64,000 nucleotides of DNA, from contig NZ_AOLN01000001.1 in the NCBI RefSeq assembly GCF_000337815.1, positions 248,001-312,000 of the forward strand. The letters run 5' to 3'. The translations under genes and the position numbers were made by a program. Positions 59,498 through 63,852 of the stretch are shown here, one piece after another. The stretch is from Haloferax mucosum ATCC BAA-1512. Lineage in GTDB: Archaea > Halobacteriota > Halobacteria > Halobacteriales > Haloferacaceae. The stretch's first letter is position 1; every line of letters starts with the position of its first letter. The notes below the pieces were generated by a model that was not told where the DNA came from, did not search any database, and saw nothing but the letters and a program-made list of their open reading frames with translations.

Positions 59498-60415
59498 ATG
59501 ATAACGGTCGAGAACTTGCGAAAAGCCTACGGCGACTTTCCCGCCGTCGTGGGAAGCGACTTCGCGGTCGAGTCGGGCGAGGTGTTCGGCATCGTCGGCC
59601 CAAACGGTGCGGGAAAGACGACGACGCTGAAGATGCTCGCCGGTCTCGTCGAACCGACCGCCGGCACGGCGTCGGTCCTCGGCTTCGACCCCGAGGACCC
59701 CGAGATGCGACGCAAACTCGGCTTCCTCCCGGAGGAATCGCCGCTCTACGAGGACATGACGCCGCGGTCGTATCTTCGTTTCTTCGCGGACCTGTACGAC
59801 GTACCCCGCGATGTGGCCGACGAGCGAACCAGCCGAGTGCTCGACCGCCTCGACCTCGAATACCGAGACAGACGCATCGGCGACATGTCCAAGGGGATGA
59901 AACGCAAGGTCGCAATCGCCCGCTCGCTCGTCAACGACCCCGATTTGCTCATCTACGACGAACCCGCGAGCGGTCTCGACCCGCTGACGACGAACGTCGT
60001 GCTCGACTTCGTTCAAGAACTCCGCGACGAGGACAAGACCGTCGTGTTCAGCGCTCACAACTTGTTTCACGTCGAATCCATCTGCGACCGTGTGGTCATC
60101 ATGAACCGCGGCGAAATCATCGCCCGCGGGACGGTCCCCGAGATACGTGCGAAACACGGCGAGACGACCTACCGCGTCTACACGACCGTCTCGCTCCCGC
60201 AGACCGAAACCGAAACCGGTCCCGACGGCGAGCGCCACGTCGCGGTCGTCGATGACATGGCGGCCGTCGAATCGCTCCGCGAAACGGCCGAAGCGGCGGG
60301 TGGCCGCGTCGCCGACATCCGAACCGACGAGGCGTCGCTAGAAGACATCTTCCTCCGACTCGCCGCCGACGCGCCGACGAAGAGCACCGTTGAAGGAGGT
60401 CGCGGGCGCTCGTGA
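59498..60415 (+). CDS. ABC transporter ATPase (ABC-2 export type)
   Basis: 305 aa. Walker A GPNGAGKTTT near 38, Q-loop FLPEESPLY, signature DMSKGMKRKVAIARS near 130, Walker B LLIYDEPASG, and H-loop FSAHNL. The C-terminal part (225-305) is the extra domain of CcmA/NatA-type exporters. CTTTTATG at 59467-59474 makes a leaderless start at 59498. Operon with two permeases. Confidence 0.94.
   Translation: MITVENLRKAYGDFPAVVGSDFAVESGEVFGIVGPNGAGKTTTLKMLAGLVEPTAGTASVLGFDPEDPEMRRKLGFLPEESPLYEDMTPRSYLRFFADLYDVPRDVADERTSRVLDRLDLEYRDRRIGDMSKGMKRKVAIARSLVNDPDLLIYDEPASGLDPLTTNVVLDFVQELRDEDKTVVFSAHNLFHVESICDRVVIMNRGEIIARGTVPEIRAKHGETTYRVYTTVSLPQTETETGPDGERHVAVVDDMAAVESLRETAEAAGGRVADIRTDEASLEDIFLRLAADAPTKSTVEGGRGRS
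60395..60400 (+). promoter_or_regulatory. Shine-Dalgarno of the first permease
   Basis: GGAGGT lies 11 nt before the GTG at 60412, within the end of the ATPase gene. It decides the start of the permease, which otherwise has no upstream start. Confidence 0.75.
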
Positions 60416-62340
60416 CCGACGAACCCTCTACCGACGGCGACTCGTCCAGCGACCGCGACGGAATTCGGGCGCGACTGGCCCATCTCTGGACGCAACTCGT
60501 CGCACACGCCCGCGCCGTAACCAGAATCGCCCGCTGGGAGGTGTCGCGCTCGGCCGGGACGGTTGACCGCCGCACCGCCGTTCTCGGACTCGTCGCTCTC
60601 GTCGTCGCCGGTGGAATCGCCGCTGGAGCGGCGGGCGGCGGCGTCGCCCTCGACCGCGACCTCTACCGAGTCGGCATCGCCGCCGATAGCCCGTATTACG
60701 ACGCAGTCGAGCAGTCGCCGACGCTCGACCCGCGACCGATCTCCGACGCGAACGTCGAACTCATCGTCACCGAACGACACGTCTCAGTCGCCGACACGCG
60801 GACCGGTGACGCGGCCTACGGGGCGTTCCGCGACGCGGTCGAATCGTACAACGAACGACAGATGCTCGCCGAGGAGAACGAATCCGCGGCGTTCCCCGTC
60901 GTCGTCACGCTCCAGTACCGAGAGCGCGGTGCACTCGTTCCCGCAGGGAGTCGCGTCGATGGCGGGTCGGGAGGCGCGGGCACTGCAGGTGACTCCGCCG
61001 GCCCGTCGGGTACTGACGGAGCGGGCGAGAGCGATTCGCCAGCCGACACGACGACCGGCGACGGTTCGGTCGGAACCGGTCCGAGCGCGTCCGATGCGGC
61101 GGCCGCAGACGACGGCGAAGTCGGCGCACCCCCGCTCGGCGGCGCGGCAAGTCTCTTCGGCGGCGACACGAGCGGTTCGCCCGCGAACATCAACCCGCCG
61201 TTTCCCTTCGCGTCGCTCGTCCTCGCGTTCGCCTTTCTCGTGCCGATGAACTTCGTGATTCAGGCCTACGGGTCGAGCATCCTCAACGAGCGAATTAATC
61301 GGCGCGGCGAACTTCTGTTGGTCGCACCCGTCTCGCCGGGTGATATCGTCGCCGGAAAGACGCTCCCGTATCTGCTCGGCACGGTCGCAATCACCACCGT
61401 CATCGCGGCGGCCGTCGGCGGTGGTCTCGTCTCCATCGCGGCCGTCGTCCCGGTCGGACTCCTGTTTCTCTCCGCGACGTTCGTCGGCGCGATGTTCGCC
61501 CGCTCGTTCAAAGAACTCACGTTCGTCACGGTGACTGTCTCGGTCTTCTTGACGACCTACACGTTCGTTCCGGCCATCTTCACGAACGTCACGCCAATCG
61601 CGCTCATCTCGCCGCTGACGCTCGTCGTCCGCGACTTGGGCGGCGGGTCAATCCCACTCGGTGAGTTCGCCTTCTCGGTCGCTCCGATTCTCCTCGCCGC
61701 GGTCGTGTTGTTCCTCCTCGGCACCGGCGTCTACCGCGAAGAAGACATGTTCACCCAGCGGTCGGTCCCGCTCAAGTTCCTCGACGCGCTCGACAGTCGC
61801 ATCTCGCGCCCGCGTTCCGTCGCGTCGCTGTCGGCGCTGTCGATTCCGTTCGTCTTCATCGCCGAACTCCTCGCTATCGCCGTGTTGTTCATCCTCCCAA
61901 TCGACGTGACCGTCCCGCTCGTCCTCGTCGCGGTCGCGGTCGTCGAAGAATTCGCAAAGAGCCTTCACGTCTACGCGGCCTTCGAGAAGGGCCGATTCGC
62001 GCGGACGATTCGAACGTCGCTCGTCCTCGGCGGACTGTCGGGTCTCGGCTTCTTCGTGGGCGAGAAGTTCACCGCCATCGCACAAATCGCCGGACTGCAA
62101 TCGCTGACGCTCGGACAGACCGCGTTCGCGCCCGCCGGTATCGGCCTCGCCGACTCCGCAGGGGTGGTCCCGCTCGTCGCGGTCGGCTTGCTCCTCGCAC
62201 CGCTCGTGCTTCACGCCGTAACGGCGAGCGTCACCGCGCTGGGCGCAAGCCGAAGTAAATCCGCCTACGCCCTCTCGCTCGTCGGCGCGATTGCGATTCA
62301 CCTCGTCTACAACCTTCAGGTGGTGTCGTTCCTTGGGTAG
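60412..62340 (+). CDS. ABC-2 permease fused to a PrsW-like intramembrane protease domain
   Basis: 642 aa from GTG 60412 (overlaps the ATPase by 4 bp). Residues 45-450 form an ABC-2 exporter half: one helix, a large extracytoplasmic loop (70-255, with a Gly/Ser/Asp-rich stretch), then five helices with SILNERINRRGELLLVAPVS (the coupling region). Residues 475-642 are a second polytopic domain with PrsW marks: VVEEFAKSLHV (E512-E513-x-x-K516), GLGFFVGE (E551), LVLHAVTASVTALG (H601), and IHLVYNL (H630-x-x-x-N634). PrsW-type proteases cleave membrane substrates using Glu and His. Confidence 0.82.
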   Translation: MTDEPSTDGDSSSDRDGIRARLAHLWTQLVAHARAVTRIARWEVSRSAGTVDRRTAVLGLVALVVAGGIAAGAAGGGVALDRDLYRVGIAADSPYYDAVEQSPTLDPRPISDANVELIVTERHVSVADTRTGDAAYGAFRDAVESYNERQMLAEENESAAFPVVVTLQYRERGALVPAGSRVDGGSGGAGTAGDSAGPSGTDGAGESDSPADTTTGDGSVGTGPSASDAAAADDGEVGAPPLGGAASLFGGDTSGSPANINPPFPFASLVLAFAFLVPMNFVIQAYGSSILNERINRRGELLLVAPVSPGDIVAGKTLPYLLGTVAITTVIAAAVGGGLVSIAAVVPVGLLFLSATFVGAMFARSFKELTFVTVTVSVFLTTYTFVPAIFTNVTPIALISPLTLVVRDLGGGSIPLGEFAFSVAPILLAAVVLFLLGTGVYREEDMFTQRSVPLKFLDALDSRISRPRSVASLSALSIPFVFIAELLAIAVLFILPIDVTVPLVLVAVAVVEEFAKSLHVYAAFEKGRFARTIRTSLVLGGLSGLGFFVGEKFTAIAQIAGLQSLTLGQTAFAPAGIGLADSAGVVPLVAVGLLLAPLVLHAVTASVTALGASRSKSAYALSLVGAIAIHLVYNLQVVSFLG

Positions 62341-63391
62341 TCCGCGATTCACCATCGCTCGGCGCGAACTCGACAGTTTACGAAAGGAGAAAACCATCGT
62401 GTTGGCGCTGGCGATTCAGCTCTTCGTGGCGGCGTTTTCATCGTTCCTCGTCGTCGGTCTCGTCTCCCTGTACGACCCCGGCGCGGCGAGCTATCAGGTC
62501 GATGTCGCCATCGCCGGCGACGAAGACGCTGTTGACGACTTATTACGCGCCGTCGGCTCCGAATCCGGACTCAACGGACGCATCTACACGTCTCAATCCA
62601 CCGCGATGACGGCCTTCGAAGAACGGCAGGTCGATGCCGTCTTACGGGCATCGACGGGCGAAGACGGGCGCATACAGGTCGCCGCGGTCGCGCCTGATAC
62701 CGGCGTGGAGACGACCGCAGTCGTCGTTAGACTCCGTGGCGCGCTCCGCGAACTGGAACGAACCGAGCGCGCCGAGCGGAGTCCGTTCCTCTCCACCACG
62801 CCGCTTCCCGTGCCGACAGCAATCGAGTCGAGTCCGTATTTCGGCTTTACCTACACGGTGCTCGTCCCGCTTTTGTTGTTCTTGCCCGTGTTCATCTCCG
62901 GGTCGCTCGTCGTAGACTCGCTGACCGAAGAGGTCGCCCGCGGGACGCTCGAACTGCTTCGGGTTGCACCAGTGAGTTTCTCGACCGTCGTCGATGGAAA
63001 ACTCCTCGCCGCGGGCGGGTTAGCCCCGATTCAGGCGGTCGCGTGGATGTTCTTGCTCCAACTGAATGGGACCGCCATCGCCAACCTGCCGTGGCTGTTC
63101 GGAATGGTCGCCGGGCTCTCGGCTGTGGTCGTCACGCTCGGCGCGACCGTCGCAATCACGGCACCCGACCGCCGCACGTCGCAACTGCTCTACTCGCTCG
63201 GCGTGTTGCTCGTCTTCGCCGGAACGTCGCTCCTACCGCTCAACCCTGCGAACTCGGCGGCGAAGTTGGCACTCGGAACCGCAGGCGTCGGCCCGCGGGC
63301 GGCCGTTCTTGGTCTCGTCGGAGTCGGTCTCGTCGGACTCGTCGGGTTGCGAGTCGTCGTCTCCCGGGTTGACCCGAACGAACTCGGATAA
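62333..63391 (+). CDS. ABC-2 permease, second subunit
   Basis: 352 aa. Same exporter family: one helix (26-48), an extracytoplasmic domain (50-170), then helices from 180 on, with the coupling segment DSLTEEVARGTLELLRVAPV. TTG start at 62333 (overlaps the first permease by 8 bp) with AGGTGG at 62319-62324 in front. Together with the ATPase makes a heteromeric exporter, probably for a membrane-associated or peptide substrate; not identified. Confidence 0.85.
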   Translation: MGSPRFTIARRELDSLRKEKTIVLALAIQLFVAAFSSFLVVGLVSLYDPGAASYQVDVAIAGDEDAVDDLLRAVGSESGLNGRIYTSQSTAMTAFEERQVDAVLRASTGEDGRIQVAAVAPDTGVETTAVVVRLRGALRELERTERAERSPFLSTTPLPVPTAIESSPYFGFTYTVLVPLLLFLPVFISGSLVVDSLTEEVARGTLELLRVAPVSFSTVVDGKLLAAGGLAPIQAVAWMFLLQLNGTAIANLPWLFGMVAGLSAVVVTLGATVAITAPDRRTSQLLYSLGVLLVFAGTSLLPLNPANSAAKLALGTAGVGPRAAVLGLVGVGLVGLVGLRVVVSRVDPNELG

Positions 63392-63513: not shown

Positions 63514-63852
63514 ATGGCACTCGGAGGAACCGCAAAGAAGCTCCAGAAGGTCGCAGAGATGGCCGAAGACGTATACAAGAAGCTCAACGAGTTGCGCGAG
63601 CAAATCGTCGAGGTCCGCGAGACGGTCACAGAGACGAAAGCGCGAGTTGACCGTCTCGAATCCGAAAACGCCGAACAGCGGGCGATTCTCGAAGCGATTG
63701 CCGAGGACCAGGGCATCGACCTCGACGCGGCCGTCGCACAGGCGCACATCACCCAAGCGGAGGACGAGTCCGAAGCCGACGCGACCGGTGACGAGTCTTC
63801 TGACGACGTGACGACCGGGACCCGCGACGAATCCACATCGGCCGACCAGTAG
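63514..63852 (+). CDS. Coiled-coil protein (DUF5798-like)
   Basis: 112 aa. Starts MALGGTAKKLQKVAEMAEDV, a long helix with heptads through LRE...ETKARVDRLESEN (30-70) and an acidic unstructured tail. Resembles DUF5798 of haloarchaea (from memory), function unknown. Start at 63514, where helix prediction begins. Confidence 0.72.
   Translation: MALGGTAKKLQKVAEMAEDVYKKLNELREQIVEVRETVTETKARVDRLESENAEQRAILEAIAEDQGIDLDAAVAQAHITQAEDESEADATGDESSDDVTTGTRDESTSADQ

Follow-up and report, generated by a model that had tools for sequence, protein, structure and literature searches.

Whether an ABC exporter permease and an intramembrane protease can be parts of one archaeal machine, and what such a machine would do, is the question raised by a gene of Haloferax mucosum. 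The gene lies in a 64,000-nucleotide stretch of the genome (the window), and a sequence-only reading had proposed that its single product both processes and exports a substrate. The open reading frame and coordinates of that reading were correct, and all of the residues it named (E512, E513, K516, E551, H601, H630 and N634) are present in the translation. The fused gene begins with GTG at 60412, in a 4-base overlap with the stop codon of the ATPase gene, and its own stop ends at 62340; the second permease gene, which probably starts with TTG at 62333, overlaps it in turn.

59498..60415, + strand: ABC ATPase of the operon, 305 aa (PF00005, 103 bits)
60412..62340, + strand: ABC-2/type V exporter permease and predicted PrsW/APH-1-type intramembrane protease in one gene, 642 aa
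60412..61776, + strand: permease part, residues 1-455 (AlphaFold2 model matches; PF12698 score below cut-off)
61807..62337, + strand: predicted protease part, residues 466-642 (PF13367, 33.3 bits; invariant residues; domain model)
62333..63391, + strand: second ABC-2 permease, probable start (PF12698, 55.6 bits)

The PF00005 and PF12698 matches of the flanking genes, together with the recurrence of the gene set in relatives, bear out the operon of ATPase, fused permease and second permease that had been described.

Architecture of the fused protein

The N-terminal part had been taken for an ABC-2 exporter permease, and it can be recognized as one from its fold and its operon partners. It is laid out as an elbow helix, TM1 (residues 53-75), an external domain (~85-265) that includes a disordered Gly/Ser-rich stretch, and TM2-TM6, which extend up to residue 440. 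An AlphaFold2 model of the fused protein (59 sequences, pLDDT 79.6, pTM 0.72) matched ABCA1, ABCA4 and NosFY in the PDB over residues 32-450, with Z scores of 13-14 and rmsd values of mostly 3.4-4 Å. When the full-length protein was analyzed by hmmscan, its score against PF12698 was 20.2 bits, under the cut-off of 31.6. Because the assignment rests on the six-TM permease fold of a type V exporter and on the ATPase and partner permease of the operon, the ABC-2 label is one of fold rather than of Pfam membership.

The assignment of the C-terminal part to PrsW was borne out by HMM search: PF13367 matched the isolated C-terminal 177 residues with an E-value of 4.6e-8 and a score of 33.3 bits, above its cut-off of 23.5, and gave 32.4 bits in a six-frame search. 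An hmmscan of the full-length fused protein missed the PrsW match, apparently through a filter effect, since the isolated domain passes the cut-off. Among distant members of the family, 10 of 22 match PF13367 at E-values up to 1. A PrsW-type domain is therefore present as had been claimed, although it covers ~177 residues (466-642) and not 165.

The motifs of PrsW, EExxK, His and HxxxD/N, lie in membrane helices (PMC4602095). In the Haloferax protein, EExxK followed by Glu, His and HxxxD/N is distributed over four successive predicted transmembrane helices, with E512, E513 and K516 in TM8, E551 in TM9, H601 in TM10, and H630 and N634 in TM11. H601, which had been placed in a loop, lies in the middle of its predicted helix (587-614). 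Counted along the predicted helices with the usual topology of ABC-2 permeases taken as given, E512, E513, E551, H601 and H630 are situated at 0.38-0.57 of membrane depth from the outside, a measure of depth within helices and not of distances between residues. The charges of the loops agree with the positive-inside rule. On this estimate the Glu and His residues do not fall on opposite sides of the membrane, an arrangement that would have spoken against the earlier proposal, and the similar depth of catalytic-type residues in four consecutive predicted helices agrees with a single active site.

Modelled alone, the C-terminal domain (pLDDT 85.0, pTM 0.80) has the core transmembrane topology of APH-1 and Rce1. 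Structures were compared by VIA-align after Foldseek, which gave no significant E-value for either the fused-protein or the domain model, and VIA-align placed gamma-secretase APH-1 at the top (5a63, Z 11.4 over 163 residues; 8oqy, 11.1; 8oqz, 10.7), followed by a group of unrelated entries at Z 8.4 and by Rce1 (4cad) at Z 5.5, on a scale where helical bundles alone can reach middling values. PDB sequence searches with the A1 and A2 profiles returned nothing relevant. Since ABC-2 membrane domains themselves have the APH-1 topology, lacking its polar residues (PMC6588880, by the ECOD authors), a fold match alone is weak proof, and it is the residues rather than the fold that decide.

The residues are conserved to a striking degree. 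In an alignment of 101 homologues, of which 81 are haloarchaeal (the window included) and 20 belong to other families within the phylum, every sequence has E512, E513, K516, E551, K552, H601 and H630; at position 634, 97 sequences have N and 4 have D. Between haloarchaea and the other groups the permease part is only ~25-33% identical, so that the motif residues are far more strictly held than the rest of the protein. Sixteen further, divergent copies, judged by eye, retain the motifs as well. We infer that the C-terminal part is a glutamic intramembrane protease domain of the APH-1/PrsW/Rce1 type, putatively active.

Recurrence of the three-gene module

A survey of haloarchaeal genomes had been suggested as a check on the fusion, and it shows the same fused gene in 91 of 146 genomes of the order Halobacteriales; its absence from about a third of those searched indicates that the module is not essential everywhere. 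A named genome collection yielded 224 related stretches (80 were retained), which come from Haloferax, Halobellus, Halorubrum, Natrinema, Haladaptatus and many other haloarchaea, and a plasmid collection contained a single haloarchaeal relative. Across 295 Halobacteriota genomes, a profile of the protease part found matches in 141, nearly always in an ORF of ~520-640 aa or longer. A profile of the permease alone found 148, almost always in single copy and in ORFs of at least ~520 aa, except for pieces that were broken or at contig edges; one of the 148, G326, is a marginal match (4.5e-7), and without it the count is 147. Eight of the permease-profile genomes were outside the protease-profile list. 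The loci of seven (L155-L160 and L168) were read by eye and have EExxK, EK, H and HxxYN; in the eighth, G370, the permease piece is at a contig edge. For copies other than those read residue by residue, the fusion is established by the protease-profile match and ORF length. Since the permease family occurs in half of these genomes and practically never lacks the protease domain, the fusion is no sequencing artefact, nor are its two parts split in relatives.

A profile of the second permease hit 147 genomes, which are exactly those with the fused permease once G326 is left aside. This shared distribution of the second permease and of ORFs long enough to hold the protease domain argues that the parts work together. 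The ATPase is usually adjacent to the permease pair, and was so in nearly all loci read, although several loci had no ATPase that we could find nearby. In haloarchaea the three genes overlap on one strand. Outside haloarchaea the ATPase is mostly divergent while the two permeases are still together (L123-L142, L153-L168), showing that gene order has changed at least once while the gene set was kept. Thus the ATPase, the protease-fused permease with all of its motif residues, and the second permease are kept together across Halobacteriota. Carriers outside haloarchaea are, judging from the phylum, likely to be mainly methanogens and their relatives. In a maximum-likelihood tree of 51 proteins, the 20 haloarchaeal rows formed one group (97/97), with one other lineage nearest, a pattern more in keeping with vertical inheritance than with frequent transfer. 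Recurrence in about half of the sampled Halobacteriota genomes points to an old, putative machine coupling cutting to ATP-driven export.

Neighborhoods were compared in search of a conserved fourth gene or small peptide, and in most genera only the three-gene module emerged above shadow-ORF noise. A conserved small secreted peptide, for which a search had been suggested, was not found near the module in the loci examined, which weakens a bacteriocin-style reading. Immediately 3′ of the module in the window is a gene for a DUF5798 coiled-coil protein (63523-63849, + strand; 118.5 bits), probably cytosolic and not a substrate. Two relatives depart from the common pattern. In Halorussus salinisoli (L050, 5992-7953), an extra fused copy lacks both partner genes, ATPase and second permease, over a distance of 6 kb and adjoins homing-endonuclease-repeat, TnpB-like and archaellin-like genes. 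In Haloferax massiliensis (L048, 5996-8635), a copy ~790 bases longer than its relatives has a split permease score and a match length that is not a multiple of three, for which an insertion, a frameshift or a sequencing error may be responsible.

Relation to known fusions and proteases

The joining of a permease to an intramembrane protease is not unprecedented: NCBIfam family NF041647 already names a polypeptide in which an N-terminal ABC-2 permease is followed by a C-terminal intramembrane protease from the superfamily to which the Haloferax domain also belongs. In NF041647, however, the protease is CPBP, whereas that of Haloferax mucosum is PrsW-type, and the NF041647 permease part matches, instead of the fused permease, the free-standing second one of the operon (23.4 bits over residues 4-236). 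The fused protein has no match at E-values up to 1 to the family, whose cut-off is 435 bits, and none of 148 Halobacteriota genomes passes that cut-off; many of their second permeases match below it. Using hhalign, the strongest NF041647 permease match (L147) aligned with the second permease at an E-value of 3.5e-8, as against 0.0027 for the fused one, and a search via L147 for bacterial relatives of the CPBP fusion found none. The resemblance of the NF041647 permease to the unfused partner suggests that the bacterial fusion, compared here by way of the profile and L147, and the archaeal one are probably independent in origin. The combination of permease and intramembrane protease in one chain is thus of a known kind, while the archaeal PrsW-type fusion appears to be undescribed. 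Our literature search found no description of it, which is weak evidence as many journals lie outside its coverage; at least one homologue is annotated merely as an ABC transporter permease subunit, and the fusion has probably been overlooked for that reason.

PrsW, the site-1 protease of RsiW, shares its motifs with the fused domain, which differs in being attached to an ABC permease, in having HxxxN, as in Rce1, instead of HxxxD, and in its low Pfam score. Rce1/CPBP and APH-1 share the membrane fold; APH-1 is without a full active site, and Rce1 has EExxxR and is unfused. Peptidase-containing ABC exporters of the C39 type also have a protease fused to an exporter, but theirs is a soluble cysteine protease on another exporter class, with different folds throughout.

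Possible roles of a protease-bearing exporter

We propose that the module is a cut-and-export machine for membrane-anchored peptides, the best explanation for its features, in which our confidence falls a little short of even. According to this model, the two permeases would assemble on a dimer of the ATPase into a type V exporter. The attached domain would act as a glutamic intramembrane protease, its site located about halfway through the bilayer, and would cut leader or anchor segments embedded in the membrane. The permeases, moving under the drive of ATP, would pull out the released hydrophobic product and export it. With no substrate gene beside the module, there are probably several substrates whose genes lie elsewhere, and these could include spent signal peptides or lipoprotein leaders. 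The process-and-export mechanism put forward earlier is still plausible as a reading of the sequence, and the conservation behind the fusion is unusually strong. A precedent is provided by Eep with EcsAB/PptAB, in which an intramembrane protease and an ABC exporter act in sequence; in Staphylococcus aureus, the release of peptides derived from lipoprotein leaders requires both Eep and EcsAB (PMC7157817). These are bacterial proteins encoded by separate genes, and since Eep belongs to another protease class, the membrane metalloproteases, the parallel extends only to the logic.

The main rival reading, on balance unlikely, is that the module is a regulated protease whose ABC part does not export and, like FtsEX or BceAB, either senses or works as a mechanical switch, so that the ATP cycle turns on a site-1-type protease that cuts a regulatory membrane protein. 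PrsW itself carries out site-1 cleavage in an envelope-stress pathway (PMC4602095), ABC systems that sense and do not transport are known (PMC7828314), and both the large external domain of the fused permease and the failure to find an export substrate encoded nearby would suit such a device. Against this, no regulator is conserved beside the module, and the exporter fold of the ABC-2 core is well conserved and accompanied by a full second permease.

A non-proteolytic use of the fold, in which the domain would present or modify the substrate of an ordinary lipid or drug exporter through lipid or acyl chemistry or as an APH-1-like scaffold, appears doubtful. APH-1 is indeed the closest solved fold, and LnsB, a relative of CPBP, acts in lipoprotein N-acylation (PMC7387801), but LnsB, SpdC and APH-1 no longer have the full set of catalytic motif residues (PMC7387801), which makes this role less likely for a family that keeps all of them in 101 of 101 members. 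Rather improbable, too, is a function in membrane-protein quality control or sorting, with the protease cutting C-terminal or orphan anchors and the ABC part dislocating the remnant. The CPBP protease myxosortase cuts off a transmembrane sorting tag at the protein C terminus (PMC11980579), and the lack of a neighboring substrate gene fits many scattered substrates; nevertheless, this role is not required by an outward-type ABC-2 exporter. That the fusion arose by chance or in assembly, or that the protease is a decayed remnant, is wholly improbable. The sole point in favor is the PrsW match missed in the full-length hmmscan, and this reading is refuted by the recurrence of the fusion in both genome samples and by invariant motifs, the six catalytic-type residues being identical throughout the alignment even in the ~25-33%-identity copies.

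More tentatively, the cut-and-export proposal may be extended to a one-polypeptide, ATP-driven machine that would have served Halobacteriota as a single-copy housekeeping system since before the haloarchaea split from their phylum relatives, and that would deal with spent signal peptides or lipoprotein leaders in a way undescribed in archaea. Because exporter and protease are inseparable in one gene, which occurs in genetically tractable Haloferax species, their coupling is directly testable. To our knowledge, almost no substrates of archaeal PrsW/CPBP proteases are known. The genome from which the window is taken also has a separate PrsW gene, at 91226-91825 of contig C11 (147 bits).
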